Source of the DNA: an uncultured Clostridia bacterium
GTDB lineage: Bacteria; Bacillota; Clostridia; Christensenellales; Borkfalkiaceae
Direction of reading: 5' to 3'
Length of the DNA stretch: 45,293 bases
Assembly (NCBI GenBank): GCA_947630605.1
Contig: CANRIO010000005.1
Coordinates: 1 to 45,293 of the forward strand
Shown here in pieces: positions 2,073-25,232 of this stretch; positions within the stretch are counted from its first letter, which is position 1; each line of letters starts with the position of its first letter. The notes beneath the pieces are model-generated. The model made no database searches and was not told the DNA's origin. It was given only the letters and a program-made list of their open reading frames with translations. The translations under genes and the position numbers were made by a program.

Positions 2073-2101
2073 TTGACACATCCTCTTCCGCATGCTATAA
2101 T
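2073..2101 (+). promoter_or_regulatory. Consensus sigma-A promoter of the GH3 gene
   Basis: Perfect TTGACA (2073-2078), 17-base spacer, perfect TATAAT (2096-2101). The start of transcription is expected near 2108, giving a leader of about 18 bases with GGGGAGGG before the ATG at 2126. Confidence 0.9.
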
Positions 2102-2125
2102 ACACAAAAAACGGGGAGGGACCGC

Positions 2126-4477
2126 ATGCCAAAGACGGTCAGGGAACGGCTGAAAAATTTTGCCGCACGCATCTTTTTCAAACTCACGGGATCCGCGCTC
2201 TCACAGAAGGAGAACGCCCATCTCGCCGTGGGCGCGAGCGTCCCCGAGGAGACCTCCGCCCTCCTTCGCCGTGCGGCCGCCGAGGGGGCTGTCCTTCTCA
2301 AAAACGACGGCATGCTCCCCTTAAAGGGCAAATTCGCCCTCTTCGGCAGGGTGCAGGCAGATACCTTCTTCACGGGGTACGGCTCGGGCGGCGACGTCGT
2401 CCGTCCCTATGCCGTGAGCATCCTCGAGGGTCTCGAGCGGGCGGAAGCCCCCCTCGTCAAATGCGTCAAAAAGTTCTACGAAGATTGGAGAAGGCAAAAC
2501 CCCGCCCCCGAGGGGAGCTGGGGGAACTGGCCCTATTTCTACCCCGAGGCTGAACTTCCCGAAGAAATTTTATCGTCAGCCGAACGGGAGACGGACACCG
2601 CCGTCATCGTCCTTGGGAGAGCGGCGGGGGAGGACCGCGAGAACGAACTGCGCGAGGGGAGCTTCTATCTCACGAAAGCGGAGAGAGAGCTATTGCGTAA
2701 GGTCACGGCGCGCTTTCCGCATGTCGCTGTTCTCCTCAACATCGGCAGTATCATCGATCTTTCGTGGGTAGAGGAATTCCCCGTCGGAGCCCTTCTTCTC
2801 CTCTGGCAAGGGGGGATGGAGACGGGAAATGCCGCAGCCGACCTGGTCCTCGGCAAGCTCTCTCCCTCTGGGAAGCTCCCTGCCTGCATCGCGAAGGAGT
2901 ACAAGGACTACCCCGCGCAGAACTTCGGCGGCGCGGACTACAACGAATACGAGGAGGACATCTTTGTCGGCTACCGCTACTTCGAGAGTTTCGCAAGAGA
3001 GCGCGTCCTCTTTCCCTTCGGCTTCGGGCTGAGCTATACAAAGTTTGAAATAGCGGCGTCCCTTTCGGAGGACACCGTAAAATACCGTGTGAAAAATGTG
3101 GGGAGCACTGCAGGGCGCGAGGTCGTCGAGGTGTATGTAAAAGTTCCGAACGGCCCCGCCCGCTGCCTTGCCGCCTTCCGAAAGTCGCGTACCCTTTCCC
3201 CGGGCGAAGAGGAGGAGGGGGAGCTTTCCATCCCGAAGCGGGCATTTTGCAGCTACGACGAGGAAAGATCGGCCTTCGTAATGGGCCGCGGACAGTACGA
3301 GATTTATGTCGGATCTGACGTGCGGACCGCGGACATGGTAGGTGGATTTTACGTCGAAGAGGAAAAAATCGTCGAACAGCTCTCCGAAAATTGCGCCCCC
3401 AAATATGCCTTTTCCGTATGTGCTGGGGAGGGCACAAAGCGCAAGGTCCGCCCCGCGCAGAAGGACCTGAAAGAAGAAATTCTGTCCCGCCTCCCCGCCG
3501 AAGTTCCCTTCTCGGGGGAGCGGGGCGTCACCTTTTCCGATGTGAAGGCGGGCCGCGCTACCGCCGAAGAATTTTTGGCACAGCTCACAAATCGGGAGCT
3601 CTTCGACCTCTCCCACGGCGCCCTCAAAATGGACAGCCCCTTGGGTGCATCGGGCAATGCGGGCGTCATGGGCGGCGTCACAAAAAAGCTCCGCGCGCGG
3701 GGCGTCCCCTGCGTCACGATGACGGACGGCCCCTCGGGCATCCGCTTGAAAATGCCCTCCTCCCTCATTCCCATCGGCACCCTGCTTGCGAGCAGTTTTG
3801 ATGTCGCTCTCATCGAAAAGGTCTATACCATGCTCGCGACAGAGATGTCAGAAAGGGGGTCAAACGTCCTCCTCGCCCCCGCCATGGATCTCCAGCGAAA
3901 TCCGCTCTGCGGGCGCAATTTCGAGTACTTTTCCGAGGACCCGCTCCTCACGGGCAAGATGGCCGCTGCCGCCGTCCGCGGCCTCAGAACGGGCGGCGCC
4001 TTTGCCTGTCCCAAACACTTCGCCTGCAATGATCAGGAGTTCAACCGCAGCCGGAATGATTCCCGCCTCTCCGAGCGTGCCCTGCGCGAGGTGCACCTCT
4101 ACGCCTTCGAGATCTGCGTGAAGGAGGGCAGGCCCGACTTTCTCATGACCTCCTACAACAAGATCAACGGCGTCTGGGCATATTATAATTTCGAGCTCGT
4201 CCGCGGCATCCTTCGCGGCGAGTGGGGCTTTGACGGCTGCGTTGTCACCGATTGGTGGATGAAGTGCGCAAAGAGCCCCGAATTCCGCCATGTGAGAAAC
4301 AACGCCTACCGCATCCGCGCGGGGGTCAACGTTCTCATGCCGGGCGGTGGCTACCTCGGAAAGAAGGTGCAGGGAGGCTCTCCTTTGCGCGGCCTCGGCA
4401 AGAAGCATTCTCTCACCCGCGCCGAACTTTTCCGCAACGCCCTCGAGATCGTAAAAGTTCTCGCAAAATTGTCATAG
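2126..4477 (+). CDS. Circularly permuted glycoside hydrolase family 3 protein (beta-glucosidase-like)
   Basis: This is a predicted retaining exo-glycosidase, probably a beta-glucosidase or beta-xylosidase. The 783 residues contain all GH3 parts in unusual order. The alpha/beta-sandwich C domain comes first (GAVLLKNDGMLPL at about 54-66), then an Fn3-like domain (from about residue 310), and the TIM-barrel domain comes last. The barrel is recognised by TMTDGPSGIR, the KHFACNDQE substrate-binding block and VVTDWW near the C-terminus; Asp709 there is the expected nucleophile. Barrel-first is the usual GH3 order; reversed forms are known from some rumen clostridia. No signal peptide is obvious, so it probably acts in the cytosol. 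The start at 2126 is set by GGGGAGGG and by the promoter just upstream; the in-frame ATG at 2057 precedes the promoter. Confidence 0.9.
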   Translation: MPKTVRERLKNFAARIFFKLTGSALSQKENAHLAVGASVPEETSALLRRAAAEGAVLLKNDGMLPLKGKFALFGRVQADTFFTGYGSGGDVVRPYAVSILEGLERAEAPLVKCVKKFYEDWRRQNPAPEGSWGNWPYFYPEAELPEEILSSAERETDTAVIVLGRAAGEDRENELREGSFYLTKAERELLRKVTARFPHVAVLLNIGSIIDLSWVEEFPVGALLLLWQGGMETGNAAADLVLGKLSPSGKLPACIAKEYKDYPAQNFGGADYNEYEEDIFVGYRYFESFARERVLFPFGFGLSYTKFEIAASLSEDTVKYRVKNVGSTAGREVVEVYVKVPNGPARCLAAFRKSRTLSPGEEEEGELSIPKRAFCSYDEERSAFVMGRGQYEIYVGSDVRTADMVGGFYVEEEKIVEQLSENCAPKYAFSVCAGEGTKRKVRPAQKDLKEEILSRLPAEVPFSGERGVTFSDVKAGRATAEEFLAQLTNRELFDLSHGALKMDSPLGASGNAGVMGGVTKKLRARGVPCVTMTDGPSGIRLKMPSSLIPIGTLLASSFDVALIEKVYTMLATEMSERGSNVLLAPAMDLQRNPLCGRNFEYFSEDPLLTGKMAAAAVRGLRTGGAFACPKHFACNDQEFNRSRNDSRLSERALREVHLYAFEICVKEGRPDFLMTSYNKINGVWAYYNFELVRGILRGEWGFDGCVVTDWWMKCAKSPEFRHVRNNAYRIRAGVNVLMPGGGYLGKKVQGGSPLRGLGKKHSLTRAELFRNALEIVKVLAKLS

Positions 4478-4677: not shown

Positions 4678-7600
4678 ATGCGTTATCGTTCTAAACCCGT
4701 CAAACATTCAGGGATAAGGAGCAATCAGATGAGCGGCGGCATGAAGGCCGTTGCCGTGCTCTCCGCACTCGTCGCCGTGGGCGCCGGCGCGGGGAGCCTC
4801 ATCGTTGCATTTACGAAGGAGGCTAAGCGCAACAGCGTCGACCTCTCCTACGGCTCCGTCATAACGCCCGTGGAGCAGGGGGAGGTATATACCTCCTCCG
4901 GCGGGTATGATCCCGTCGATATCTTTGCCCGTCTCAATTGGACGTTCGCACAGCAGACGGAGTGGTACGGCGAGTATTCGGGCTATGTGAATACCGTCGT
5001 CACACAGGACGTGCATACATACAAGTACTACAAGGACGGCATGCTCATCTCGGCGGACATCACGGAGAGCTCTCTCGTGAATGCTGCGCGGGAATTTTGT
5101 TATGTTAAGGACAATGACCGCGTCCTCTGGCGCGAGGCTGCGGGCGGCTCCTCCACCTACGATAAGTTGGACACGCCTTGGCAGAGCGGCGATCCTCACC
5201 GCAACATGACCATCTCGGGCGAGAACGGCTTCAAGGCCATAAACGGCCTTCCCGCATACGAGCTCAGCCCCTACGTCATCGAGCCGAACACCGTGCTTTC
5301 CTCCACCGTCCGCGAGGCGACCGATGAGGAATACGACTTGTATTACCCCGGAGATGAAGCTGCTCAGGCGGCGATGAGAAGAGCGCGGCAAAACGGAGGA
5401 ACGCTCTATCGGGCAGACTTTGTCATGAACCCCGAGATCTGGAAGGACAAGGATGCGAACGGCAACGAGATCGTCAAGGGGGCGACCGCCTACTACATCA
5501 ACCAAATGATCTTCACGGGCGGACTTCCCGAGGCCCCCGAATTCACCTCCCTCAACATCACCTACTACTTCGACGAAAATTGGGTGACCTATGCGACGGT
5601 CGTCGAAGAGAACTACAGCGCGGCATACGGTCCCATCAAGGCCCCCTGCAAGGGCGGCGGCACCACGACCTATTCCTACAAGCCCTACAACGAAGCGGAC
5701 AATCCCTATCCCGACGCCTATGAGGAATACTTCCAGTACTACATGGACGCAGCTCCCGATACCGACTTCGAACGTCCCATCACCGCACTCGATGCGTTGG
5801 CGGGCGCGTTCGGGCCGCTCCTTGCCGAGCCTACGACCTTGAAGCTCGACCTCTCGATCGGCGGCAAGCAGACGGCGGGGAGCGTCTTTGTGGATCTGAG
5901 CAAGACCGATCTTTCCGCCTTTGACGTCGGCGCCATCGAGGCCCGCGTCGGCCTCGGAGCCCTCAACCTCTGGGTGGAAGGCGGGAAGGCATACATCAAC
6001 TACGGCGGGGCCAAGCTCTCGCTCACCCTCTCCGAACTTCTCTCCCTCCTCACGCCCGCACAGCCGGCGGCGGAGACGGAAGGGGAAGAGGGCGGGGGAC
6101 TCAACACCGACGACCTTCTCGGCGCACTTGCAAACGGCGAATTCAAAGTGGAGGAAGGGAAGGCGGAATTGCACTCCAAGCTGCCCCTCCTCGGCTATGA
6201 GATCCCCATCGACTTCTACTTCAACGTGGATGCGGAAAAGAAGGTCACGCTCGACCGTGCCGCCGTCTCGCTCGACCTCGACGGCCTTGCGCTCGGCGCG
6301 GACATCTCCTTTGGCGGCGAGGCCATCCCCGCCCTCAAAGAGGGGGAGAAGGCGGACTATATCGAACTTGTCCCGCACATCCAAAGCCTTATCGACCTCT
6401 TCACCTCGCCCGCGCTCCACGCCGACCTCGGCTATGAAGGACACGGCGTACAGGTTGAAGGCGGCATCGATATCGCCGTCTCCCCGTTCGCTTTGAAGGG
6501 AGACATTGCCGTGAAGATCCCCGCCTACAATGCGGAAAAGAAGATCTCCCTCGTCTATCAGGAGGGGGCGGTCTATCTCGATCTCGACGGCATCCGGTTG
6601 CGCGCGTCCATTGCCGACGCGGGCTCTCTCATTTCCAAATATCTCGATTTTAGCTCGCTCACGGAAGGCGGGCTCTCTTTGGATATCGGGGGTGTGGTCG
6701 AAAAGCTCCTCTCCTCCGAATTTGCACAAAACATCATCGCCTCGAAGGAGGAGAGCAAACTGCATCTCCTTCTGCGCGGGACGAATATTTTGCAGGCGCT
6801 CGGCATCGACTTCGCGCTCGGCGACGTCTCCCTCGAAATTGCGCCCGAATCGCTCTCTTTGGGCGCCCTCGGCATAAGTGCCACCCTCACGAAGGGGGAG
6901 GCATTCACCTTCACGCCCGAAGGATATACCGACATCGTCCCCTACGCCGCACGCATCGCAAAGCTTGTCTCGGGCGGCTACCTTGCGGCCGAGGTCTCCT
7001 ACACGGGCGAAACGCTCTCCGTGACGGGCGGCCTCACCCTCGATGTGAAGAAACTCGCCGCGAAAGGGACGTTCACCCTCTCGTACATGGGTACTCCGAA
7101 AACGCTCGAAGTCCTCTATGCGGACGGGGAACTCTATCTCACGGTCGACGGCCTTCGCATCAAGGCAAACGTCAAAGAGGCCATCGATCTTGTGAAAGAG
7201 TTCGTCAAAATCCCCTCCGGGGACAGCGATGCCCTCAAGATCGTCGCGGACCTCTTCGCCCTCGACTTCTCGAAACTCATCAAACTCTCCGAAGAGGAGG
7301 ATACCCTCACCCTCACGGTCGCGGGGACCGACCTTCTCCATGCCCTCGGGCTCTCCTTCGACCTCGGCGACATCGCGCTCTCCATCGAAGAGAAAGACAT
7401 CACCCTCACGGCAGAGGGCATCTCGGCCAAGCTCAAGGCGGGCGAGTCCTTCGAATATTCCGTCGACGGCTACTCCGAGATCGTGCCCTATGCAAAGACC
7501 ATTCTCGACATTTATCAGAGCGGCTTTATCGCCCTCAATGTGAACGTTCCCATCGGCAGTCTTTGTCTCGCGGGCAGGGTGGATATCGACCTCGGCTCCT

Positions 7601-10600
7601 TCAACGTCGCCGCCACGCTCTCGCTCATCTCGGGCAGCAAGCAGAAGGACGTGGAAATCTTCTACGAAGGCGGGGAGATCTTCCTTGCCGTCGACAATAT
7701 CCGCCTCAAAGTGAATGTGGAGGAGGGGGCGGAGCTCCTCGGCGGTCTTCTCGATCTCGGTAGCACGGGCGAGGAGATCGACGCCATCAAAGCGCTCCTC
7801 GGGGCAAACTTCTCTGAACTCATCCCCGAACTTTGGGAATCGGACGGCGCCCTTCATATCACGGTCGCGAGCGGGAAACTTCTCTCCCTCTTCGGCGTCT
7901 CTTTCGACCTCGGCGATCTCCGCCTTGCCGTTGACGGAGAAGGTGCGGTCGCCAAACTCGGCAAGATCGTCCTCACGGCGGCGGCAGGTGCCCCCTTCGA
8001 AGGCCCGAGCGGGCAGTTCCTCGACATCACCGATTATCTCGGCGCGGTCGCGACCTTTGCGAATGCAAAGTCTCTCACGGTCGACGTCAGCTACGACGGA
8101 GGGGAAAAGTTCTCGCTCAAGGGTGCCATCGACATTCTTCTCGACGGCACGGCCGCACAGGGCAACCTCACCCTCACCGCGAACAACAAAGAGGGCGGCA
8201 AGGCGGAGCATGCGATCTCCCTTCTTTGGACGAAGGAAGAGAACATCATCTATCTCGCCGTCGACGGCATCAAACTTCGGGCGAATGTCGAAGAGGCAGT
8301 CGGCCTTGTCAAATCTCTCATCCAAAAAGTAAAGCCCGCCACCGCAAGGGGCAGGGCTTCAGACGGGGAAACGCAGGAAGAGGAAGCGCTCACCGTCCTC
8401 GAAAAACTGCTCTCCTTCGACCTCGGCGAATTCTTCGCCCTCGCAGAGGAGCGGGATGAAACGTCGGGCACCCTCACCCTCACGGTGAAGGGGACAGAGC
8501 TCCTTTCCGTCCTCGGGCTCTCCTTAAACCTTGGCGACGTGGACCTCTCTTTGGATACAGACGGACACATCTCCCTCCATGCCATGGACGAAAAACTCGT
8601 TCTCTCCGTCCACGGCGGCGAAGGGTTCGAAAAGCAGAGCACGGATGGGTATGTCGATATCGTCGCCTACGGGCAATACCTCCTCGACCTCTTTGACAAC
8701 AATACCTATAAAGTCACGGCCACCTATCAGGGAAAAACCCTCAAGGTGCGTGCAGACGTCTCCTTCGACACCGAAAAGAAACTTGCCGTCGGCAGTCTCA
8801 TCCTCATCTATAAAGAGGCGGCGAAAGAGATCTCCTTCGCCTATGAGGAGGGCTGGTTCTATCTCGCCCTCGGCGATTCCTATCGTCTCAAGGCGAAGAC
8901 GGCGGGGGCCCTTGCCCTCATTGCGGGCTATCTCGGCCTCTCGGAGGACGGCGTAACTTGGGAAGAGGGGCTTGACAAGGCCCTCACCACGACCCTCGAC
9001 GGGCTCCTCACCCTTCACGAAACGGGAGAGGGGGATGCGCGCATCCTCACTGTCCTTCTCGACGGCTCCGCGCTTTTGAAGGCGCTCGGCATCGACTTTG
9101 ACCTCGGAGAAGTGGACCTGCAGGTCGCCAAGAATTACCTTTATGCCTCCGTCAAGGGGGTCGGCGTCGAAGTGATCGGAAACGGCGTGACGCTCCCCGA
9201 CATCCAAGACAGAGACAGTTACACCGATCTCTCGGGCTATCTCGACAGCGTCGTCAACGTCTTCAAGCAGGACTATATCACCTTGGACCTTGCCTATGGC
9301 GAGAGCGCGGATGCGTTCCAGGTGACGGGCACGCTCTCCATCGACGTCCAAAATAAGCAGGCCCGTGCGGACATCACCGTCAAGAAAGATGGGACAGAAA
9401 TCTCTCTCGGCATCGTCTACGACAAGGACGGCTATATCTATCTGAACCTCGATGGCGCGAAGATCAAGGCAAGTGCGCAGCAGATCATCGACCGCATCAA
9501 GGGTCTCTTCTCAAAGAATGACAATTCGGAGCAAGACAGCGGCGAGCCTCTCGGCCGCAGGCTCTCTGCCCGCACGCCGCTTAAGGCCGCGCTCACCGAG
9601 GACCAGAAGAGCAAACTCCTCGGCATCCTCGAGACCATTCTTTCTCTCAACCTCGACGACTACTTCACTCTCAGTGAAAAGGACAACGCCCTCTCCATTG
9701 TTCTCGACGGCACCGGACTTCTCGCAAAGCTCCTCAAGAAAGACGAGAAAGACATTTCCCTCGGCGACATCACCGTCGAAGTGAAGGGCGGCGCTCTCAC
9801 GCTCACCGTCCTCGGCGCGACCATCACCGCAACGGGTAGCAACGAAGGTTTTACTGCGTTGACCGACGAGGAGAAGGCGGGCTACGCCGATATCATCAAA
9901 TACGTCGGCTACATCACTGAACTCTTCAAATCGGACATCCTGAAGCTCCATATCGAAAACCTCTCCGTGCAAGTGGGGGATACGGTCATTTCCGCCGAGG
10001 GCGACATCGATATCAAGACGGACGGCTCTCTCGCGGGCGGCACGCTCACTTTGAAAGTGGGCGGCAAGTCACTCACGCTCACCCTCTATTACGAGAATGC
10101 AGAAAAGAGGACCTTCTATCTCGAACTCGGCGACGTCAAGCTCAAGGCGAGCATCGAGGACATCAAGACCCTCATCGACAAACTCAAGAATAAGGAGCCC
10201 GCGGCGGCGCATGCACTTCGTCTTGCGGCAATCTTTGCCGAGAATGATCTCTTCGGTGCGAATGTCGAGGATGGCGTTTTCAGTCTTGCCCTCAACGGCA
10301 AGAAGCTTGTCAAGCTCCTCGGCTTGGATATCGCACTCAACAACATCGCCCTCACAGTCAAAGAGGGCAGCCTTGGCGTTTCGGCCTCTTCGGATAAGTT
10401 TGGTCTCGACGCGACCCTGTCCAAGGCGAACTCCATTGAATTTGATACGCCTGAAAACAAGGCATCCTACGTCGACCTTGTGAAGTACGTGGACTATGCA
10501 GTCGATCTCTTCCGCAAAGACGCCTTCGAGATCGGGCTGAGCTTCACAAAAGGGGAGTTCACCATAACGGGAAGCTCCTCCTTCGCGCCCAAGTCCAAGG

Positions 10601-13600
10601 TCGCATCGGGTGAATTCACCATCACCTACGGGACGACCTCGAAGCACGCCGAGTTCGCCTATCAAGACGGCACGGCCTATATCGCCCTCGACGGCTCGAA
10701 CGGCGTCATGAAATTCAAGGCGAAGTCGGCGGCGTCCGTCGCCCTTCTCGCGGCCTATTTCGGCTTCTCGGGAACGGATAAGACCCTGACGAACACGTTC
10801 ACCGACGCATTCCAAGGCGTCTTCACGAGCTTTGATTCGCTCTTCGCACTCTCCGAGAACGCCGAAAAGGATGTCCTCACCCTCCTTGTAAACGGCACAG
10901 AGCTTCTCAAAAAGCTCAAGATCTCTCTCGGAAGTTTCGAGCTTGGCGACATTGGCGTGAAGCTCGGGAAAGACAACCTCGTGCTCTCCGTGCTCGGCTT
11001 GCAGGTCACGCTCCGCGGGACCGATACGGCACCCGTCCTTCCCACAGAGGAAGAGCTCGCGGGCTATATCGACCTTTCGGACTATGCGGATACCCTTGCC
11101 GCGCTCGCTTCGAGTGAATATCTCGGGATCAGCATCTCCTATACCTCGAAGGATACGGTGCCCCTTTCCGTGCGAGGCGACGTCTACATCGCCGTCAAGG
11201 AGAAGAATATACGCGCCAATGTCACGATCGAAAAGGACAAATCTTCCATCGTTCTCGGCGTCGTCTATACGGGCGGCAAGCTCTACATCGATCTCGACGG
11301 CGCGAAGATCGCCCTCGACGCCAAGGAGGCGGTCTCCTATCTCGAAAAGCTCATCAAGGGCACGAAGGGCAGGGCACGCTCTGTGCGGAACGCCCCCACG
11401 GCGATCCTGAACGAGGAGCAGACGAATAAACTTCTCTCCGTTTTGAAGGATCTCTTCACGCTCGAGCTCGATAACTTCTTCACCGTCGAAGAGGGGGAGG
11501 GCGGCATCTCCATCCTCCTCAACGGCACGGGGCTTCTTCAAAAACTTCTGAAGAAGGAGATCGCCCTCGGCGATGTAAAACTCACCGTTGGGAAGAGCGT
11601 CTTTGGCGCGGATGGCACCGTCGAGAAATGCGGCGACGCCACCCTCGAAGCGCTGGGCGCAACGATCGTCTTGGGCCGTTCGACACAGTTTACGGTCTTC
11701 TCTGAAGACGACAGCGCAGATGAGTATGCCGATATTCTCGAATATATTGGCTACATCACCGAACTCTTCAAGTCGGACATCCTGAAGCTCCACATCCAAA
11801 ACCTCTCCATGAAAGTGGGCGAGACGGAGATCACCGCCTCGGGTGACATCGACATCAAGACGGACGGCTCTCTCGCGGGCGGCACGCTTAACTTGAAAGT
11901 GGGCGGCAAGTCCCTCACGCTCACCCTCTATTACGAGAAGACAGACGGGACCTTCTATCTCGAACTCGGCGGCGTGAAGCTCAAGGCGAGCATCGAGGAT
12001 ATCCGGGATCTCATCGACAAGCTCAAGAATAAGGAGCCCGCGGCGGCGCACGCCCTTCGTCTTGCGGCGACCATTGTGGACAACAACCTCTTCGGCGTGG
12101 GTGTAGATGTCGAAAACAATATCCTCGACCTCGTCATCAACGGCGGGAAGCTCACGAAACTCCTCGGCTTGGATATCGCACTCGACAACATCGCCCTCAA
12201 AGTTGCGCAGGGTAGCCTCGGCGTCTCGGCCTCTTCGGATAAGTTTGGTCTCGACGCGACCCTGTCCGAAGGAGCTGATGATAGCTTCAAGGACATTGCC
12301 GATGAAAATAAGAAGGATTACGTCGACCTTGTGAAGTACGTGGACTATGCAGTCGATCTCTTCCGCCACAAGGCATACGACCTCACGATCTCTTACGCGA
12401 AGAACGATCTCACGATCGAAGGAACAGTTTCCTTCGATACCGAGAGCAAGACGGCGAAGGCCGCTTTGAACCTCGGCTATAAGAGCGCGAAGAAGCACCT
12501 CGACCTCATCTATAAGGACGGGTATCTCTATCTGACCCTTGCCAAGGGGAACAAAGAGGAGTTCAAGTTCAAGGCGAATACCGCCTCGGCGGTCGCGCTC
12601 ATCCTCGGCTACCTCGGCGTCTCGGGAACGGACATTCTTCCCGACATGAAAATGCCCGATGATGTCTTCGGAGAGCTCTTCGCAGACTTCGACGAGTTCA
12701 TCTCTTTGAGCGAAAGCGAAGAGATCAATGAAGAGAACAATGAAGTGAACTATGTTCTCACACTCCTTGTAAACGGCACAGAGCTTCTCGAAAAGCTCAA
12801 GATATCGCTCGGCAACTTCGATCTCGGCAACATCGGCGTTCAGCTTAAAAAGGATAGCCTTGCCCTTACCGTCCTCGGCGCGAACCTCACCCTTACGGGC
12901 ATAGAGAAAGTCACCCTTGGCGAATTCAAAGAAGCGGACTACGTTGACCTCTCCGCCTACGTGGACAGCGTCGTGAACATCTTCAAACAGAAAGTTATCA
13001 CGCTGGCGGTCGATTACGATGATAATGGTGTCGCGGTAGAAGGCAGTATTCGCATCGACGTCCAAAATAAGCAGGCCCGTGCGGACATCACCGTCAAGAA
13101 AGATGGGACAGAAATCTCTCTCGGCATCGTCTACGACAGCAAGGGCGTGATCTACCTCAACCTCGACGGTGCGAAGATCAAGGCGAAGGCACAGGATATT
13201 CTCGATCTTGTCGAGGGGCTCTTCTCAAAGAAGGATAGCTCTGAGCAAGACAGCGGCGACCCTCTTGGCCGCAGGCTTTCCCGCACGCCGCTCAAGGCCG
13301 CTCTCACCGAGGACCAGAAGAGCAAACTCCTCGGCATCCTCGAGACCATTCTTTCTCTCAACCTCGACGACTACTTCGAACTTGCGGAGGAAAGGGGCGA
13401 GAACGGCGAAACGGATTCTCTCACCCTCACCGTCAAGGGAACAGAACTTCTCGCAAAACTTCTCGGTAAGGACATCAAGCTCGGCAACGTCGATCTCAAA
13501 GTTGAAAACGGCGGCGCCCTCACGCTCACCGTCCTCGGTGCGACCATCACCGCAACGGGCAGCGAAGAAGGTTTCGTCCTCTTCGACGAAGGCGACGGCG

Positions 13601-16600
13601 CAGCCAACTACACCGATGTCCTTCAATACATCCAATGGGCAGCGGACATCTTCGCACAGGAGGCGAAGAAGGTAGAGCTTACGATCACTTCGGGCGACCT
13701 CTCCGTCGGCCTTACCCTCAATGTCATCAAGGGCAACGCCTTCATGCAGGGCGAGATCACCCTTACATATAAGGAAAATAACAAGGACTTCAACTTCGTC
13801 TATGAGAAGAACGGCGGCGAGAGCGGCACAGAGGGATGGATCTATCTCGATCTCGACGGCGTCCGGATCAAGGCCAAGACGGACGACATCGTAGCCCTTC
13901 TCAAGAGTTTGTTCAAGAATGCGACGGGCGAAGAGGCGGATTCTTCCCGCACGCGTGCGCTCGGCTATGCCGCAGCCGCCATCCTGAATGCGGATGAAAT
14001 GGCGTTCGGCGCATTCTCCCTCACAGAGAAGGACAGCGTGCTCACCCTCACCTTGAGCGGCGAAAAGCTCATGAGCCTTCTCGGCGAAAAGGTGCAGTCC
14101 CTTCTCGGCGATAAGTTCTCCCTCGAGAGCGTCGGCCTCTCCATCTCCGAGAAGGCCTTCACGGTGGAAGCGGATGCCGCCATCTCGGGTAGCTCCGTCG
14201 ATCTCACCTTGGACATTTCGAAGGGAGAAAAGACCTCGCTCACCGAAGAGGAAAAGAAAGAACTTGCAAGCTATATCGACGTCTTCAAGTACGGCAAGAT
14301 GGTGAAGGATCTCTTCACCGAATCGAAGACATTGCAGGCAGAGATCTCCGCAGAGCTCTTCGGTCAGGATGTCGATCTCACTCTCAAATTCAACAAGGAC
14401 TTCACGATGGCAAAGGGGACGCTCAAAGTCGGCTCCATCATCGACCTCGGCCTCATCTACGTGCTCAAGGAAAGCAAGACGGAAGGGGAGAAGGACGTCG
14501 TCCTCTATATAAAAGTGGGTGAAAACGTCAAGCTCATGGCCAATGTCTCCGAAGTCATTCGTATCATCCGAAGTGCGAAAGGGGACGGGGAGACGAAGGG
14601 CCGCGCAAGGTCCGCCGCACCCATCGCCCTCACCACCAAGCAGGAGGAGATGCTCGGGAAGTTCCTTGGTCTCAAACTCAGCGACATTATCGCACTCACC
14701 GAAAAGATCGCAACGGAAGGCGACAGCCTTGAAATTGCGATCAAGTCGAAGGATCTTCTGGGCCTTCTCGGCATCGACTTCGACCTCGGCACCGTAAACG
14801 TCAACATCTCTGAGGGCGAACTCATGATCGCGCTTCCCGACAAAGCCGGCCTTACGATCGACCTCTACGACACATCGCGTACCTTCATGATCGAAGAGTC
14901 TGAATTGGACGAATATCGTGATATCACGCCCATTGTCTCCCGCGTCGTCGAGCTCATCGAGGCGCAGGCGATCGAGTTCTCGGGCGACCTCGTCATAGGG
15001 GATCTGACGCTCACCATCGAGCGGGGCGTCTTCAGTTGGAAGGATGGGGAGAACAAGAAGTTCTACCTCAAGGCTTCGCTCGGCGATATCCACCTCGAGC
15101 TTCTCATCGTAGGGGAGAACGCCACACTCAAGGTCGGCAGCTTCGGCGTGAAATTCGCCTTCTCGGATATCGGCGACCTCATCGAGGCCGTGAAGGGTCT
15201 CATCGCCAAAGTGAAGGCGACGATCGCCGACATCAAGGAGAACATCACGGGCACCTTCAACCGCGACGACCTCGTCGGCAGCTTGCAGGGCATCGCCGAT
15301 GTTCTCACAAACATCGTGGACTTCCTCGGCGGGAGCAAGGATGCAGCGGCCGCGGCCGTCACCGCAAAGGAAGTTCTGGATATGGGCGGCATGCGGCTTT
15401 CGCCTTCCGCTCTCACACCGGAGGGGAACAAAAAGGTCAAGCTCTTCGGCTTCTCCCTCGGCAAGCTCACGATCGAGCTCTTCGACGAGACGGACTTTGA
15501 TGAGCGCGGCCTCCTCGGCCTCGGTCTCACCATCGGGGATACGACTGCGCCCACCCTTTCTGCGACCGTGAATACGGCGATCTTCACGGGAGAATTCCCC
15601 GAGATCGCAGGCGCAGAAGACTTCTATGATCTCAGAGAATTCATCGAAATGCTCGGCTATGCGGGCGATGCGGTCGCTCTCGTCTCCGAGCGCAACCTCA
15701 CCGCGAAGATCGGCGGCAACGTGATGTCTACGAACACCGCCATGTATACAACGGCAGGCAACGAAGGCCTCGTCTACGATATCACGGGGAATATGGACTA
15801 CGCCTCGGGCGACAGTTTCCCCATTCATCTCGACATGGACGGCAACAACCTTTGGGTGAATACGGACTTCTTCCTGCATTTCAATCTTTACATCAAGGCG
15901 GGGACGCAGCAGACCATGGTCAACGGTTCCCCCGTCGACACCACGCCCAAGAACCTCTACATCGACATCTTCATCACCGACTGCGATCTTGCAGGCGAGC
16001 AAAACGGCGAGCTTGACTTCTTCGTCTCCATCTCCCAGATCGGAGAGGGGAACGAGGGCTACAATCCTTTGAAGCTCTATGCCCCCGCAAAGGAGATCCT
16101 CACCATTCTCTCCGGTGTGGCATCCATCCTCGGTATGGACGCCGTGACCTATGTCAACCAATATCTCATCCAGCCCCTTCTCGATGAGGACATGGTCGCC
16201 CGCCTCAAGGGCTTGGGCGTCAGCCTCGTGCCCACCATCCTCGACATGCTGTTGAAGGATACGGACGAGACGGAAGGGTCTGCCACGATCGCAAACAATG
16301 TGCCGATCCCCGAGGATGCCTTCGGCGTGCAGTTCGGCAATGTCAAACTCCATTTCAAGTCGGAAAAGGACGGCGACAATTCCTACCTCGCCCTTCTCGG
16401 CATCACGACGGAAGAGGAGGAGAAGTCGGGCGATGCGACCTACACCAAGACCACCGACCTCGCCTTCGCGTTTGAGCGCAAAGTCGAATACACCCCCGAA
16501 CAGAAAAAGCCTACGGTCCTTACGGGCTTCTTCGACATCGAGGGCGTCGATGAACTCGTTCTCGCCCTCGCCCGCACGGCGACCCACAAGGCGACCGCCC

Positions 16601-19600
16601 AAGAAGTGGAACAGGGCATCGCCAAGACGGGCGAATATGTCCGCAACGATCTGTTCTTCGTGGACGGACTTCTGCACCTCGACCTTTCGATCATCGGCAT
16701 CAACATTGAGACGATCAATATCAATGTGCTCGGGCTCACGGTCAACTTCGATGCAAACAATCAGATCTCGCTGAATGCAAAACTTTCCTATGATGGCGTT
16801 TATAATGCATTGGCGGGACTTGCCGGTGACAGTACTATCATCAACGGTGATACCGTGCTTGATCTCACCATTGCGAACGGTATGCTCTATATGCGCCGCG
16901 AACAGACGAGCGATTTCGGCGGAAGGAATCATGATTGGCGTCCACTCGGCAACGAGAGCATCGTCATCTATCGCGCAATGCCGCTTGCCAATTTTGCGAA
17001 GGATACTACGACCATGATGGATAACATCTGCTTCATGTTCAACCTGAGCAAAGACCTCATTTCCACTATCATGGGCAGCATTGGCGGTGGCACGGGCGGC
17101 GGAACGGCGGCGGCTCCCTCCGATATCGGCGGCTTGTTCTACAAATATATCAATAGTTGTACCTATGAGGACCAAGGCGATACAAACGGCCTTGTAAACC
17201 TTCTCTATACCCTTGTTCTCAATGGCGCGGGGCTCACGAACAGCGATTCTTTCGGTAACATCACCGTCAAGCTCGGCGTAGAAAAGGGCGTCCTTCGCAG
17301 TATCGAAATCCCGAAGTTCTCCATTGCAAGCGTCGTGAATATCAATGCGAATTTGCGGCTTCGCAATCCCGAATATGTTTGGGATGACGGCTATTCGGAT
17401 TTGACGCAAGACATTGCCGAACAGCTCAAACGCGGAATGGACGCGAAGTTGCAGAAAGTGGATTGGAACGCCACGACCTATCTCGAAGGGCAGTTTACCA
17501 CCGTCACCTACAAACTTCAGGATCAGGTTTTGGGCACACAGGACGTTGTTTTCGAGCCCAACACAAAGGAACTCTATGCGACGCTCTCCTATCCCGATAT
17601 TGAATCGTTCTTGAATAAGAACCCTTCCTTCCGTCAGGACGGATACACCTACGAATGGGTGAAGCCCAATCCGAACGATTTCAAAGCGGGCATGACGATT
17701 TCTGCCAAAGCGCAGGCAAATAAATATGACTTGGTATTTATCATAGAAGAGGATGATGTGGAGAGATATCAGGTCACCGTTGCAGAGCTCGAAGCGGCGG
17801 GCTATTCATGGGACGATGAGTACAACGCATACGTTCACATCTATCACTGGACGTACGATCCCGAGAATTATATCGACCTTCCCTACATCACGACGAAGGT
17901 CGGAAAGATCATCGGCTTCCGTTGCCCCAACGACAATCTCCACAACGAAGATCACCGCGGCCTTGACTTCTACGATCGGCCTACCGTCGAATACAGGGCA
18001 GAGTGGGAGTATATCGACTACACGGTCACCTTCGACTTCGGCAACGGAACTTCGGAGGGAAGAACAGGGCACTATGAGGATCCGCTCAACTATCCTGATG
18101 CGCCCACCCGCACGGGCTATACTTTTGCGGGATGGGACGTTACGGTGAGCAGCTTCACGGGGAATATGACCATTCACGCGAAATATACGCCGAACACCTA
18201 TCAGATCACGCTCGTGAGCGAATATGCCATCGACGGTTTCACACCTCGTGCAGACGGTAAATATGAGAAAACGATCGACTATGTGTATAACACACAGACC
18301 GATCTTCCCGTCAATATTCGCGCAGATGGTTTTATCCTCAACGGTTGGTCTCTCACAGCAGAAGATACGGGGACGCATTTCACGCAATTACCTGCGATCG
18401 CTGAAAACCGTGAAATCTATGCCGTATGGGATATTATCGGTTTCGATATCCGCTTTGTCGTAAAGGCGGCGGACAGCACGACAGGCGTTGAGCAAGAGAT
18501 CGCTGTTAAGAACTTCAAATACGATGACGTGCTCGCCAATCTTCCCGAAGTTCCGCAAAAAGACGGCTACACGGGCGCATGGGATATCCCCGCCGATTAC
18601 ACCGTGTCGGGCGAAGATACGATCTACGCCGTCTACACGGGTATCCACTACTATATCACCGAATACAGCCTCTATGCGATCGCGGGATATACCGAGGTGA
18701 AAGGGGAATTCGATTCCGAAGGCGTGCAGGGCAGTTCCTATTGGAAGAAGACCTATGAATACGTCTATGGCTCGACGCCGCACCCGCTCACCCTCGGCGT
18801 GAGTGAAAATGTTTATGGCTATGATTTCAAGGGCTATTACACCGAGCGGTTCGGACAGGGGACTAAGATCGATGATAACCTGATCGACGACGATATGATC
18901 CGCGATATCTTCCACTTCAATGTGGGGGACGGCTCCACCCTCGAAGAGCAGAATGTCCTCTATGTCTATTGGGAAGATAATTCCGTCGAAGTACATCTCT
19001 ACAGCGACGTAGACTTTGCAGACAAGACGGGGCACGACGTCGACGGCTACTACAAGTCTCTCATGAAGATGGAAGGGGACTACGACATCTCGGGCGAAAC
19101 TATCACCCCCAACGAAAAAGAGATCCAGCAGATCGGTTGGTGGTATAACGACCCCGAGAAGGGTTGGCGCAAGGTTACCGATGTGGGAGTGTTCCGCAAT
19201 CACGACAATAAGAAACAGGCTACCGTCAAACTCTTTGCCCTGTGGGTCACCGATATCAAAGTCTCCATTACGACATTGGTCGATAAGAATAGCACATACG
19301 ACATCGGCGGCAATGCGCAAGGCGGCGAAGTATATCCGGGCGGCAAGAGCGCAGAGATCTATGAAAAGACAGGCATGACCAATCCCATGACGGGCATTTT
19401 CAAAATCTGCGGACGCACAGCAGAGTTTTTGGGAATGGGTGGTAATTGGACAGAGGATACTTTGCAAAGTGGAGCTGTATTTAACATCGATCGCGGCGAA
19501 GGCGGTTCATTCCTTAAAACAGGAATGATGTCATTCAACGCCGTAACATGGCAAGATAGTTCCATGCACGGAGGAGTGATCATTACTGTCAAATTTACCA

Positions 19601-21531
19601 TGAAGGACGGGACCGTCGCTGCAACGACCACTTGGACTTCGATCGTTTCCTTCCACACCTACGATGTTCGCGTCCTTGACGAAAACGGGAATGAGCTGAA
19701 AAAAGAAGCCGTTCGCCTCGATTACGATCGCGACGAATACGATAACGCCGTCTATACGCGGGATGTCCTCGAAGGTAGCACATTGCATAGCTTCAGCGGC
19801 GTAGAAATTCCCAAGAAAGAGGGCTACACGGGATATTGGACGATCAATGGCGTGGAGATCACGGGCAACGAGAAGATCACGGGCGCGACCGAAATCAGAG
19901 CCGCATACAAGCCCAATCTCTACCCCGTGGAGTTCAACGACCTCGACGACTGCGATGATGCGGCAAAGAGCTATCTGCAAAGCACGAAAGAACTTGCTTA
20001 TGGCACGCAGATCTTCTTTGTCGCCGACGGCGCGACCATTGCAAATTATACGGTAGGGCTCGAAAACAACATCTTCGCTGTACCCGCAATGGTCTATTCG
20101 GGCGCGCATGCCGAAGGTTACACGGGCAAGTGGCACCTCACCGAGAACGCAGCAGGCAAGGTAACCTTCACAGCAGTCTACGAAGCCATTTTGCAGGAGG
20201 TTGTCTTTACCGTCGTAGAGAAGCCGAACGATGGGCGCGCCTGGCAGCAGTCCGAAGGGAAATTCACGTTGGATTGCGAACTTCCCTACGATACCGTCAT
20301 CAGGTTTACGGAAAACGGTGCGGAGACCGCGGCCCACACGGTGAAGCTTACAGGCTCCAACACCTTCGCCCTTCCCGAAAGAGAGGGCTACACGGCAAGC
20401 TATTCCGTTACAAAGAGCGGCAACGTCATCACGGTTGAGGTGACCTACGTCGAGAAGACCTTCAACTACACGATAAAATTCCACTATAACGACGGAACGG
20501 AGACCGTGGACGAAGTGCCCTACACCGCGCACTTTACCAACACGACATACGAAGTGACTTCGCTTGAGCATAACGTTTCTCGTGATTACTATGACTTTGT
20601 GGGTTGGTATTTCGACGACGCGTGCGAGAAGCTCTTCGATAAATGGCCGGCGGAACCGAATAAAACGCTCGATGTATATGCGGGTTGGAAGGTAATCGAG
20701 TATACGATCGTCTACGAGTCGCAAGGACTTGATGGAGCGGAATTTACCAATCCCAACGACAAAGTTTGGAAAGATGGCGTAGAGATAACATTGAAGGAAG
20801 CCAGCTATAGCGGTTATGCCTTCGACGGTTGGTTTACTACGGACGGAACAGAAGTCACGAAGATCGACAAGGATAACGCAAAGCAATACATCGACGAAGC
20901 GACCAGCACCATCACACTCTACGCGAAATTCCACAAAGACACCGTGTATAACTTCAACTATAATGTCTCCGAGAAGTACGGCGATCTTACTTGCACAGAA
21001 ACGGCAAGTGCAAGGGTCGGCGAAACCATCACCCTTCCCGCCTATGACACAAACGGCGTGAATAAGCACGATTACGACGTGAAAAAGCAGTGGTACTTTG
21101 CGGGTTGGAAACTGCCGAACGATGAATCGCTCTATGAACTCGGCGCAGTAGTTACGATTACAGCCGACCACGTTTTGGACAGTTCTGACGATGCGGTAAC
21201 GATTACCGCTGTTTGGAAGGAGAAAGTCGTATTGACGGTGACATTAACCAAAGAAAATGGAAGGATTATGTCTGCTGATACTCCGAGTTATACTTTGGAT
21301 TATCAAACGAGCAAAGATGGCGCACTTGATGGAAAGGATTCTCAACAACAGGCATCAAACGGTACCAATAGTTGGTCATATTACATAAAGCCGGATGAGC
21401 AGATGTTTAAGATTTCTTTTGCGGGAACTAATAAACACGAAGTAAGCGAAAGAACTGCTAGCACTAATCTTACTTATATACTAAGATGCTATTACGAATG
21501 GCGGAAGCAGGAAGAATTCACACAGCCATAA
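4678..21531 (+). CDS. Giant tandem-repeat surface protein (5617 residues) with LolA/LppX-like modules and InlB-type repeats
   Basis: Not a named protein. Residues 23-45 form one hydrophobic segment after a basic start, so it is a signal peptide or a signal anchor. From about residue 560 to 3600 at least 14 related modules follow, marked by a V-x-G-T-x-L-L-x-x-L-G-x-x-F-D-L-G-D block. The T position of that block falls at residues 702, 884, 1066, 1273, 1464, 1679, 1875, 2074, 2284, 2490, 2701, 2922, 3129 and 3358. Each module runs helix (DIVPYA), beta meander, DGxxYLxLDGxxxKA, helices, beta hairpin, helix, strands. This order resembles LppX/LprG lipoproteins of the LolA fold (my inference). 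Residues 3675-4275 are beta-rich and not repeated. About 4445-5518 holds roughly eleven Listeria-Bacteroides repeats (GYTFAGW-like). No LPXTG motif or C-terminal membrane segment is visible. The start is fixed by a strong GAAGGAGG. It is probably an extracellular adhesin or binding fibre. Confidence 0.85.
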   Translation: MRYRSKPVKHSGIRSNQMSGGMKAVAVLSALVAVGAGAGSLIVAFTKEAKRNSVDLSYGSVITPVEQGEVYTSSGGYDPVDIFARLNWTFAQQTEWYGEYSGYVNTVVTQDVHTYKYYKDGMLISADITESSLVNAAREFCYVKDNDRVLWREAAGGSSTYDKLDTPWQSGDPHRNMTISGENGFKAINGLPAYELSPYVIEPNTVLSSTVREATDEEYDLYYPGDEAAQAAMRRARQNGGTLYRADFVMNPEIWKDKDANGNEIVKGATAYYINQMIFTGGLPEAPEFTSLNITYYFDENWVTYATVVEENYSAAYGPIKAPCKGGGTTTYSYKPYNEADNPYPDAYEEYFQYYMDAAPDTDFERPITALDALAGAFGPLLAEPTTLKLDLSIGGKQTAGSVFVDLSKTDLSAFDVGAIEARVGLGALNLWVEGGKAYINYGGAKLSLTLSELLSLLTPAQPAAETEGEEGGGLNTDDLLGALANGEFKVEEGKAELHSKLPLLGYEIPIDFYFNVDAEKKVTLDRAAVSLDLDGLALGADISFGGEAIPALKEGEKADYIELVPHIQSLIDLFTSPALHADLGYEGHGVQVEGGIDIAVSPFALKGDIAVKIPAYNAEKKISLVYQEGAVYLDLDGIRLRASIADAGSLISKYLDFSSLTEGGLSLDIGGVVEKLLSSEFAQNIIASKEESKLHLLLRGTNILQALGIDFALGDVSLEIAPESLSLGALGISATLTKGEAFTFTPEGYTDIVPYAARIAKLVSGGYLAAEVSYTGETLSVTGGLTLDVKKLAAKGTFTLSYMGTPKTLEVLYADGELYLTVDGLRIKANVKEAIDLVKEFVKIPSGDSDALKIVADLFALDFSKLIKLSEEEDTLTLTVAGTDLLHALGLSFDLGDIALSIEEKDITLTAEGISAKLKAGESFEYSVDGYSEIVPYAKTILDIYQSGFIALNVNVPIGSLCLAGRVDIDLGSFNVAATLSLISGSKQKDVEIFYEGGEIFLAVDNIRLKVNVEEGAELLGGLLDLGSTGEEIDAIKALLGANFSELIPELWESDGALHITVASGKLLSLFGVSFDLGDLRLAVDGEGAVAKLGKIVLTAAAGAPFEGPSGQFLDITDYLGAVATFANAKSLTVDVSYDGGEKFSLKGAIDILLDGTAAQGNLTLTANNKEGGKAEHAISLLWTKEENIIYLAVDGIKLRANVEEAVGLVKSLIQKVKPATARGRASDGETQEEEALTVLEKLLSFDLGEFFALAEERDETSGTLTLTVKGTELLSVLGLSLNLGDVDLSLDTDGHISLHAMDEKLVLSVHGGEGFEKQSTDGYVDIVAYGQYLLDLFDNNTYKVTATYQGKTLKVRADVSFDTEKKLAVGSLILIYKEAAKEISFAYEEGWFYLALGDSYRLKAKTAGALALIAGYLGLSEDGVTWEEGLDKALTTTLDGLLTLHETGEGDARILTVLLDGSALLKALGIDFDLGEVDLQVAKNYLYASVKGVGVEVIGNGVTLPDIQDRDSYTDLSGYLDSVVNVFKQDYITLDLAYGESADAFQVTGTLSIDVQNKQARADITVKKDGTEISLGIVYDKDGYIYLNLDGAKIKASAQQIIDRIKGLFSKNDNSEQDSGEPLGRRLSARTPLKAALTEDQKSKLLGILETILSLNLDDYFTLSEKDNALSIVLDGTGLLAKLLKKDEKDISLGDITVEVKGGALTLTVLGATITATGSNEGFTALTDEEKAGYADIIKYVGYITELFKSDILKLHIENLSVQVGDTVISAEGDIDIKTDGSLAGGTLTLKVGGKSLTLTLYYENAEKRTFYLELGDVKLKASIEDIKTLIDKLKNKEPAAAHALRLAAIFAENDLFGANVEDGVFSLALNGKKLVKLLGLDIALNNIALTVKEGSLGVSASSDKFGLDATLSKANSIEFDTPENKASYVDLVKYVDYAVDLFRKDAFEIGLSFTKGEFTITGSSSFAPKSKVASGEFTITYGTTSKHAEFAYQDGTAYIALDGSNGVMKFKAKSAASVALLAAYFGFSGTDKTLTNTFTDAFQGVFTSFDSLFALSENAEKDVLTLLVNGTELLKKLKISLGSFELGDIGVKLGKDNLVLSVLGLQVTLRGTDTAPVLPTEEELAGYIDLSDYADTLAALASSEYLGISISYTSKDTVPLSVRGDVYIAVKEKNIRANVTIEKDKSSIVLGVVYTGGKLYIDLDGAKIALDAKEAVSYLEKLIKGTKGRARSVRNAPTAILNEEQTNKLLSVLKDLFTLELDNFFTVEEGEGGISILLNGTGLLQKLLKKEIALGDVKLTVGKSVFGADGTVEKCGDATLEALGATIVLGRSTQFTVFSEDDSADEYADILEYIGYITELFKSDILKLHIQNLSMKVGETEITASGDIDIKTDGSLAGGTLNLKVGGKSLTLTLYYEKTDGTFYLELGGVKLKASIEDIRDLIDKLKNKEPAAAHALRLAATIVDNNLFGVGVDVENNILDLVINGGKLTKLLGLDIALDNIALKVAQGSLGVSASSDKFGLDATLSEGADDSFKDIADENKKDYVDLVKYVDYAVDLFRHKAYDLTISYAKNDLTIEGTVSFDTESKTAKAALNLGYKSAKKHLDLIYKDGYLYLTLAKGNKEEFKFKANTASAVALILGYLGVSGTDILPDMKMPDDVFGELFADFDEFISLSESEEINEENNEVNYVLTLLVNGTELLEKLKISLGNFDLGNIGVQLKKDSLALTVLGANLTLTGIEKVTLGEFKEADYVDLSAYVDSVVNIFKQKVITLAVDYDDNGVAVEGSIRIDVQNKQARADITVKKDGTEISLGIVYDSKGVIYLNLDGAKIKAKAQDILDLVEGLFSKKDSSEQDSGDPLGRRLSRTPLKAALTEDQKSKLLGILETILSLNLDDYFELAEERGENGETDSLTLTVKGTELLAKLLGKDIKLGNVDLKVENGGALTLTVLGATITATGSEEGFVLFDEGDGAANYTDVLQYIQWAADIFAQEAKKVELTITSGDLSVGLTLNVIKGNAFMQGEITLTYKENNKDFNFVYEKNGGESGTEGWIYLDLDGVRIKAKTDDIVALLKSLFKNATGEEADSSRTRALGYAAAAILNADEMAFGAFSLTEKDSVLTLTLSGEKLMSLLGEKVQSLLGDKFSLESVGLSISEKAFTVEADAAISGSSVDLTLDISKGEKTSLTEEEKKELASYIDVFKYGKMVKDLFTESKTLQAEISAELFGQDVDLTLKFNKDFTMAKGTLKVGSIIDLGLIYVLKESKTEGEKDVVLYIKVGENVKLMANVSEVIRIIRSAKGDGETKGRARSAAPIALTTKQEEMLGKFLGLKLSDIIALTEKIATEGDSLEIAIKSKDLLGLLGIDFDLGTVNVNISEGELMIALPDKAGLTIDLYDTSRTFMIEESELDEYRDITPIVSRVVELIEAQAIEFSGDLVIGDLTLTIERGVFSWKDGENKKFYLKASLGDIHLELLIVGENATLKVGSFGVKFAFSDIGDLIEAVKGLIAKVKATIADIKENITGTFNRDDLVGSLQGIADVLTNIVDFLGGSKDAAAAAVTAKEVLDMGGMRLSPSALTPEGNKKVKLFGFSLGKLTIELFDETDFDERGLLGLGLTIGDTTAPTLSATVNTAIFTGEFPEIAGAEDFYDLREFIEMLGYAGDAVALVSERNLTAKIGGNVMSTNTAMYTTAGNEGLVYDITGNMDYASGDSFPIHLDMDGNNLWVNTDFFLHFNLYIKAGTQQTMVNGSPVDTTPKNLYIDIFITDCDLAGEQNGELDFFVSISQIGEGNEGYNPLKLYAPAKEILTILSGVASILGMDAVTYVNQYLIQPLLDEDMVARLKGLGVSLVPTILDMLLKDTDETEGSATIANNVPIPEDAFGVQFGNVKLHFKSEKDGDNSYLALLGITTEEEEKSGDATYTKTTDLAFAFERKVEYTPEQKKPTVLTGFFDIEGVDELVLALARTATHKATAQEVEQGIAKTGEYVRNDLFFVDGLLHLDLSIIGINIETININVLGLTVNFDANNQISLNAKLSYDGVYNALAGLAGDSTIINGDTVLDLTIANGMLYMRREQTSDFGGRNHDWRPLGNESIVIYRAMPLANFAKDTTTMMDNICFMFNLSKDLISTIMGSIGGGTGGGTAAAPSDIGGLFYKYINSCTYEDQGDTNGLVNLLYTLVLNGAGLTNSDSFGNITVKLGVEKGVLRSIEIPKFSIASVVNINANLRLRNPEYVWDDGYSDLTQDIAEQLKRGMDAKLQKVDWNATTYLEGQFTTVTYKLQDQVLGTQDVVFEPNTKELYATLSYPDIESFLNKNPSFRQDGYTYEWVKPNPNDFKAGMTISAKAQANKYDLVFIIEEDDVERYQVTVAELEAAGYSWDDEYNAYVHIYHWTYDPENYIDLPYITTKVGKIIGFRCPNDNLHNEDHRGLDFYDRPTVEYRAEWEYIDYTVTFDFGNGTSEGRTGHYEDPLNYPDAPTRTGYTFAGWDVTVSSFTGNMTIHAKYTPNTYQITLVSEYAIDGFTPRADGKYEKTIDYVYNTQTDLPVNIRADGFILNGWSLTAEDTGTHFTQLPAIAENREIYAVWDIIGFDIRFVVKAADSTTGVEQEIAVKNFKYDDVLANLPEVPQKDGYTGAWDIPADYTVSGEDTIYAVYTGIHYYITEYSLYAIAGYTEVKGEFDSEGVQGSSYWKKTYEYVYGSTPHPLTLGVSENVYGYDFKGYYTERFGQGTKIDDNLIDDDMIRDIFHFNVGDGSTLEEQNVLYVYWEDNSVEVHLYSDVDFADKTGHDVDGYYKSLMKMEGDYDISGETITPNEKEIQQIGWWYNDPEKGWRKVTDVGVFRNHDNKKQATVKLFALWVTDIKVSITTLVDKNSTYDIGGNAQGGEVYPGGKSAEIYEKTGMTNPMTGIFKICGRTAEFLGMGGNWTEDTLQSGAVFNIDRGEGGSFLKTGMMSFNAVTWQDSSMHGGVIITVKFTMKDGTVAATTTWTSIVSFHTYDVRVLDENGNELKKEAVRLDYDRDEYDNAVYTRDVLEGSTLHSFSGVEIPKKEGYTGYWTINGVEITGNEKITGATEIRAAYKPNLYPVEFNDLDDCDDAAKSYLQSTKELAYGTQIFFVADGATIANYTVGLENNIFAVPAMVYSGAHAEGYTGKWHLTENAAGKVTFTAVYEAILQEVVFTVVEKPNDGRAWQQSEGKFTLDCELPYDTVIRFTENGAETAAHTVKLTGSNTFALPEREGYTASYSVTKSGNVITVEVTYVEKTFNYTIKFHYNDGTETVDEVPYTAHFTNTTYEVTSLEHNVSRDYYDFVGWYFDDACEKLFDKWPAEPNKTLDVYAGWKVIEYTIVYESQGLDGAEFTNPNDKVWKDGVEITLKEASYSGYAFDGWFTTDGTEVTKIDKDNAKQYIDEATSTITLYAKFHKDTVYNFNYNVSEKYGDLTCTETASARVGETITLPAYDTNGVNKHDYDVKKQWYFAGWKLPNDESLYELGAVVTITADHVLDSSDDAVTITAVWKEKVVLTVTLTKENGRIMSADTPSYTLDYQTSKDGALDGKDSQQQASNGTNSWSYYIKPDEQMFKISFAGTNKHEVSERTASTNLTYILRCYYEWRKQEEFTQP
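6352..15530 (+). repeat. Tandem array of about 14-15 divergent 550-690-base modules inside the giant gene
   Basis: The coding repeats have a period of 182, 182, 207, 191, 215, 196, 199, 210, 206, 211, 221, 207 and 229 codons between equivalent residues. Early modules are regular at 182 codons; later ones carry longer linkers. Variable basic linkers such as ARGRAS, GRRLSAR, GRARS, GRRLSR and SRTR separate the second helix from the following strands in six of them. The first (before residue 560) and last (residues 3550-3620) copies are degenerate. Confidence 0.8.
9340..13380 (+). repeat. Higher-order three-module repeat (about 1.84 kb unit) inside the giant gene
   Basis: Modules 6-7-8 match modules 9-10-11 much better than they match their neighbours. 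Stretches around 9910-10420 recur at about 11753-12265, an offset near 1844 bases. Module 12 returns to the module-6 type: 9340-9423 is identical to the copy about 3714 bases downstream (near 13054-13137), and about 75 bases at 9592-9666 recur at 13303-13377. This points to duplication of a three-module block followed by recombination. Confidence 0.8.
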
Positions 21532-25042: not shown

Positions 25043-25050
25043 GAAAGTTT

Positions 25051-25226: not shown

Positions 25227-25232
25227 AAGATG

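Follow-up and report, generated by a model that had tools for sequence, protein, structure and literature searches.

What does a Clostridia bacterium do with a single protein of 5617 residues, most of whose length is a string of repeated domains? The question is raised by contig CANRIO010000005.1 of assembly GCA_947630605.1, from an uncultured member of the Borkfalkiaceae (Christensenellales), analysed here as one stretch of 45,293 nucleotides (the window). The giant protein may be a surface fibre built from LolA-type modules, anchored in the membrane and acting as a multivalent binder of lipids or other amphiphiles, a reading to which we give an even chance. Its open reading frame (ORF) and the parts of it are as follows:

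4678..21531 (+): giant ORF, 5617 residues, ATG start, uninterrupted (ORF call and translation)
4747..4812 (+): strongly hydrophobic stretch, residues 24-45, with a basic tail before it (hydropathy scan)
4915..5712 (+): N-domain, residues 80-345, the best-conserved part (comparison with the sister species; no significant Pfam match)
5731..6339 (+): divergent module m0, residues 352-554 (i-Evalue 1.7e-10 with an iterated order-wide profile, 0.0051 with a window-only profile)
6334..14889 (+): clear tandem modules m1-m14, residues 553-3404, 182-223 residues each (repeat analysis and profiles)
6901..7470 (+): module m2 plus 8 extra residues, the modelled unit (structure prediction)
9196..13584 (+): three-module higher-order repeat (pairwise module identities)
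14890..15582 (+): divergent module m15, residues 3405-3635, by profile about 3398-3635 (i-Evalue 3.1e-9; window-only profile 8.1e-5)
15592..16488 (+): module m16, enlarged and very divergent, residues 3639-3937 (i-Evalue 8.6e-4)
16489..18018 (+): region between m16 and the InlB-type repeats, residues 3938-4447 (no Pfam or NCBIfam match listed); it may hold one more decayed module
18019..20943 (+): Listeria-Bacteroides/InlB-type repeat region, residues 4448-5422, from the first to the last listed best stretch (Flg_new, TIGR02543)

A preliminary description of this DNA had proposed about 14 LolA/LppX-type units at 6352..15530, capped by InlB-type repeats. Fourteen modules do lie there head to tail; a fifteenth unit, from residue 3405, is very divergent, and the array extends farther on both sides. 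The InlB-type repeats at the C-terminal end are real as well (Flg_new, 2.5e-16, four stretches; TIGR02543, 3.3e-9) and are the only above-cut-off Pfam and NCBIfam matches in the giant ORF. Fifteen anchors of the form [Y/F]-x-[D/E]-[ILV] recur from residue 561 to residue 3413 at a spacing of 182-223 residues. Mutual identity among m1-m14 is 19-38% (m6/m9, 38%), except for the pairs m7/m10 (74%), m6/m12 (70%), and m8/m11 (50%). Leave-one-out profiles, with close copies excluded too, score all 14 modules at 75-163 bits, while the maximum in shuffled sequences is 9.2 bits (50 shuffles per module). Thus, the modules are not a chance pattern. In the bacterium's own genome, which is 74% complete, a profile search finds the module 14 times, solely in the giant ORF. 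The order-wide profile, iterated over sequences from the window, from its relatives, and from far families across the order, traces the array from about residue 352 to about residue 3937. It gives one match among 190 reversed or shuffled sequences at a cut-off of 0.05; it was trained on array proteins, and the weak members lean on that set. Because m0, m15, and m16 are recognised in this way, the chain appears to comprise about 17 modules (about 5731-16488).

The fold of the modules is approached through a structure model of m2, one module of about 17. The model has 11 strands and 4-5 helices, with a predicted local distance difference test (pLDDT) score of 78.2 and a predicted template modelling (pTM) score of 0.64. 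Its nearest structural neighbours are LprG, LprF, and LppX, followed by LolA, LolB, and RseB; the ranking covers chains preselected by Foldseek, and similar families may exist outside that set. The model shows the strongly curved antiparallel sheet, with about 10-11 strands and short helices facing it, that defines the superfamily of LolA, LolB, RseB, VioE, and ependymin-related proteins, whose fold is given as the beta-clam (CATH 2.50.20) in the available text of PMC6363788. An unrelated Ig- or MBG-type fold, named beforehand as the contrary outcome, is not seen in it. The LolA/LppX-type fold put forward in the preliminary description is therefore upheld on the modelled module, and the model argues strongly that the modules have a LolA-type (beta-clam) fold.

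Sequence comparisons do not add to this assignment. The expected profile similarity to LppX_LprAFG (PF07161) is not significant: scans of 28 modules give scattered weak matches, among them PF07161 at a best E of 0.16, below the family cut-off. Profile-profile comparison of the modules with a PF07161-like set gives P values of 0.41 and 0.18; that set, 35 clostridial lipoproteins in all, was assembled from a starting member that barely passes the PF07161 cut-off (24.1 vs 24). Since no match exceeds the cut-off and the profile-profile values are P 0.18-0.41, the modules are not placed in PF07161. Comparison with the G424 lipoproteins is likewise not significant (P 0.11 with the iterated profile and 0.43). 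A PDB sequence search matched Fis1 chains along about 45 residues (E about 0.03-0.04) and a chain of an acetylcholine receptor (E 1.4); both are read as chance. Adjacent small lipoprotein gene pairs occur in another clostridial family (L058, 448-2205, and L093/L095). One of these lipoproteins matches the module profile weakly (E 7.6e-4 for its genome). These lipoproteins are possibly single-domain relatives of the modules; the profile-profile comparison is not significant, and those of L058, L093, and L095 were excluded from the array proteins for their weak scores. L059 was excluded because its match lies in a stop-containing frame.

In a set of 111 modules (L035 and L036 left out as apparent duplicates of L034, together with three identical modules), each of the 11 strands has one face that is clearly more hydrophobic. 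Over the 41 strand positions of that face, 88% of residues are hydrophobic and 5% charged, compared with 25% and 31% over the 42 positions of the opposite face; at 22 helix positions, at least 75% of residues are hydrophobic. The pattern is compatible with the concave face of a LolA-type sheet, the concave side being assigned from sequence. The contrast is inflated, since for every strand the face was selected for being hydrophobic, and a packed core would give the same pattern. According to the available text of PMC4709180, LprG binds triacylglyceride and moves it between vesicles. On the precedents of the superfamily (PMC6363788) and of LprG (PMC4709180), we infer that each module retains an aliphatic concave face that could hold an acyl chain, a glycolipid, or another amphiphile.

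Homologues of the modules are indeed found in related genomes. Of 151 near relatives, 71 carry modules (70 from the same genus, one from another family); the N-domain is present in 74 (71 from the same genus), in a single place per genome with few exceptions. The same-genus set numbers 91 genomes, the window's own included; 68 carry both elements, two the modules alone, three the N-domain alone, and 18 neither. At class level, modules are matched in 9 of 391 genomes (three of this genus, the other six weakly), and at phylum level in 1 of 348, the window's own. Across the order, the N-domain is matched in 60 of 347 genomes from families f1, f13, f19, f28, and f32, many of these far matches being weak and covering the second part of the domain only. 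Loci were fetched for 15 of the 60, plus G430. The 16 far array ORFs contain 1-9 modules each by the first profile and 4-13, mostly adjoining, after iteration, the iterated profile being trained on the very arrays whose modules it counts. Among the 57 ORFs longer than 350 residues in these loci, no other is listed as a match of the iterated profile.

The N-terminal end suggests how the array is held. Residues 24-45 are the sole strong hydrophobic stretch of the giant protein and probably form a membrane anchor of the uncleaved signal-anchor type. The basic tail and hydrophobic stretch recur in six of eight relatives inspected by eye; in the other two, the frames start inside the gene. The first Cys of the protein is residue 141, there is no lipoprotein signal peptide, and a scan near the C-terminal end gave no LPxTG-like motif (the one NPxTG-like match is at residue 4902). 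The N-domain follows, and its segment 80-360 is 94% identical to that of the sister species (L034), with a ratio of nonsynonymous to synonymous substitution rates (dN/dS) of 0.06. Judged by topology, the N-domain may be LolA-like too; its profile-profile comparisons are not significant (modules P 0.63, PF07161-like set 0.32, G424 set 0.11).

The N-domain and the array are fused in all 10 fetched loci of families other than f28. In f28, five of six loci have them as two neighbouring genes that share a strand. The array ATG lies 12-15 bases past the N-domain stop, after a Shine-Dalgarno-like stretch, in four of these five, and 2 bases past the stop in the fifth; a hydrophobic stretch begins the array protein in all five. 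At the sixth locus, a 323-residue ORF that is absent from the N-domain-profile matches abuts the array. The fused and split arrangements argue that N-domain and array cooperate at the membrane. One N-domain ORF, in G271 (L124, 3410-5098, minus strand), has a long N-terminal extra part before its hydrophobic segment that looks by eye like a methyltransferase domain.

The close pairs in the window recur with a period of three, and the sister species, whose 5389-residue ORF has 14 modules, carries its own near-identical copies (m8/m11, 100%; m7/m10, 96%; m9/m12, 95%). The best segment of the sister species stands at 73%. Identity to this species drops along the protein, from 94% in the N-domain through 81-92% in m1-m5 to 53% at residues 4441-5000; the final part is at 29%, whereas residues 3405-3620 are back at 80%. 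Synonymous divergence (dS) is 0.26-0.5 from the N-terminal end to m5, 0.30 at residues 3405-3620, and 0.9-1.4 in m13, m14, and residues 4441-5000; m13/m14 (13585-14889) and 17998-19677 thus stand at two to four times the N-terminal half. Values for m6-m12 and the last segment are rough, because the orthology of the former is unsafe and the latter aligns poorly. This unevenness of dS along the gene suggests a mosaic whose parts have been exchanged or replaced. Nine fetched relatives have 8-17 detectable modules in one frame, counts that lean high because these relatives were picked for many modules or long frames; the array of one of them (L045) ends at a contig edge. The 70 same-genus genomes show 1 to 21 module matches in often fragmented assemblies. 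Of the 10 units in L046, 8 share 90-96% identity with one another; the 10 units of L045 all share 87-99%. Given these near-identical units, the period of three, and the varying counts, arrays seem to grow by recombination between repeats.

In the proposed mechanism, the N-terminal membrane helix would tether the conserved N-domain to the extracytoplasmic side of the membrane. About 17 LolA/LppX-type modules would follow, running outward in a predicted cell-surface topology, ending in a fast-changing InlB-type tip, with chain length set by recombination between repeats. Each module could hold a hydrophobic ligand, and the chain as a whole would then bind lipids or amphiphiles at many sites. Such a fibre might capture lipids from outside, display the cell's own glycolipids, or hand ligands along. 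A broader version is more doubtful: an order-wide system in which a chain with as many as about 17 pockets, anchored beside the N-domain, takes up membrane or environmental lipids and carries or stores them outside the membrane of a bacterium in which no outer-membrane machinery is detected.

The chief rival treats the LolA-type fold as a spacer brick, its pocket closed or irrelevant, in a plain stalk whose copy number sets how far the InlB-type tip projects, after the manner of Periscope Proteins and fibrillar adhesins; we consider it less probable than the lipid-binding fibre, yet a substantial contender. The varying module number (8-17 in the nine relatives, 1-21 matches across the genus) would suit a stalk, and so would the faster divergence of the distal part. 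The near-identical units of L046 and L045 resemble the high-identity arrays of Periscope Proteins as the available text of PMC8201768 describes them, and Flg_new repeats are termed stalk domains in that of PMC9210967. However, the window modules are only 19-38% identical, three pairs excepted, and the best-conserved parts are proximal (the N-domain and m0-m3) rather than a distal adhesin. The near-uncharged hydrophobic face is kept over 111 divergent modules, which speaks against a plain stalk, although a packed core would need the same face.

Two further readings weigh less. Adjoining modules might align into a conduit in which lipids pass from module to module across the wall, away from the membrane, in keeping with the lipid-carrier fold, the hydrophobic N-terminal anchor, the conserved membrane-proximal N-domain and first modules, and the split-gene form, in which an array with its own hydrophobic N-terminal end lies beside the N-domain gene. 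However, the LprG pocket is one central cavity with a lid in the available text of PMC4709180, no lipid transporter is named among the window neighbours scanned, and nothing indicates an outer membrane to receive the lipids: the window carries SpoIVA of a spore former, and Omp85 (PF01103) has no match in the 74% complete genome, whereas the same search is positive in 7 of 14 control genomes. An outward conduit is possible but improbable. Least probable of all is a peptide- or stress-sensing array, modelled on the LolA-like domains of RseB and MucB, which have proteins or envelope molecules as ligands and act through a signalling partner. The window neighbours scanned include no named anti-sigma factor or kinase (in other families, a minority of neighbours is named), and many-fold tandem expansion is not known for sensor domains.

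The lipid-binding fibre would differ from known systems in several respects. LprG, LppX, and LprF (PF07161) are single-domain mycobacterial lipoproteins, whereas the giant protein joins about 17 modules in one chain, has an N-terminal hydrophobic helix and no Cys near its N-terminal end, and shows no significant sequence similarity to them. Members of the LolA superfamily are mostly monomers, with some dimers and a two-domain RseB, in the descriptions available; here, the modules form tandem chains of 4-17 in a bacterium without a detected Omp85. The Lol lipoprotein-sorting pathway goes with an outer membrane, for which the 74% complete genome gives no Omp85 match. Like Periscope Proteins and fibrillar adhesins, the giant protein is a long predicted surface protein of tandem folded domains, with repeat numbers that vary (between species, the level compared here) and near-identical repeats in some relatives (L045, L046). 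Unlike these two groups, it is anchored by an N-terminal hydrophobic helix, without an LPxTG-like motif near the C-terminal end, and has divergent repeats in the window and its conserved domain at the anchor instead of the tip, where a Pfam scan and conservation identify no functional domain. A LolA-type unit is not named in the available text on either group (PMC8201768, PMC9210967).

The fold itself is known. No tandem cell-surface chain of LolA-type domains that recurs within an order and, in one family, is divided between two genes turned up in the portions of the open-licence literature consulted; LolA-type folds belong there to single carriers, to sensors, to one enzyme, and to animal proteins. 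If true, the clostridial chain would either handle lipids, glycolipids, or bile-type amphiphiles beyond the membrane in a new, multivalent way or supply surface fibres with a new kind of brick. A direct handle comes from the split-gene form, with its two smaller membrane proteins that probably cooperate.

Upstream of the giant gene are a GH3 enzyme and an M18 peptidase; downstream come tRNA-Thr, DapB, and Asd. Among nine relatives whose surroundings were fetched in part, two retain GH3 and M18, and four retain DapB and Asd. GH3, M18, DapB, and Asd look like housekeeping genes and give no functional hint. At the far loci, where a minority of neighbours is named, neighbours shared besides the N-domain gene come as pairs only, and the sole cross-family pair is a P-type metal ATPase at differing places.

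Several minor features accompany the locus. Long antisense open frames of 998-1394 residues lie opposite the giant gene (4708-8325, 10069-13065, and 13225-17409, minus strand) and are taken for a side effect of codon composition. Within the array (12389-12485, minus strand), ARAGORN reports a tRNA of unknown type that has a 4-base anticodon; Rfam does not report it, and it is probably a false hit arising from the repeat. In the GH3 enzyme (2057-4477, plus strand), the C-terminal domain precedes the N-terminal one. A lysine riboswitch (79 bits) lies at 25050-25228 on the minus strand, at the start of the Asd gene, with DapB beyond.

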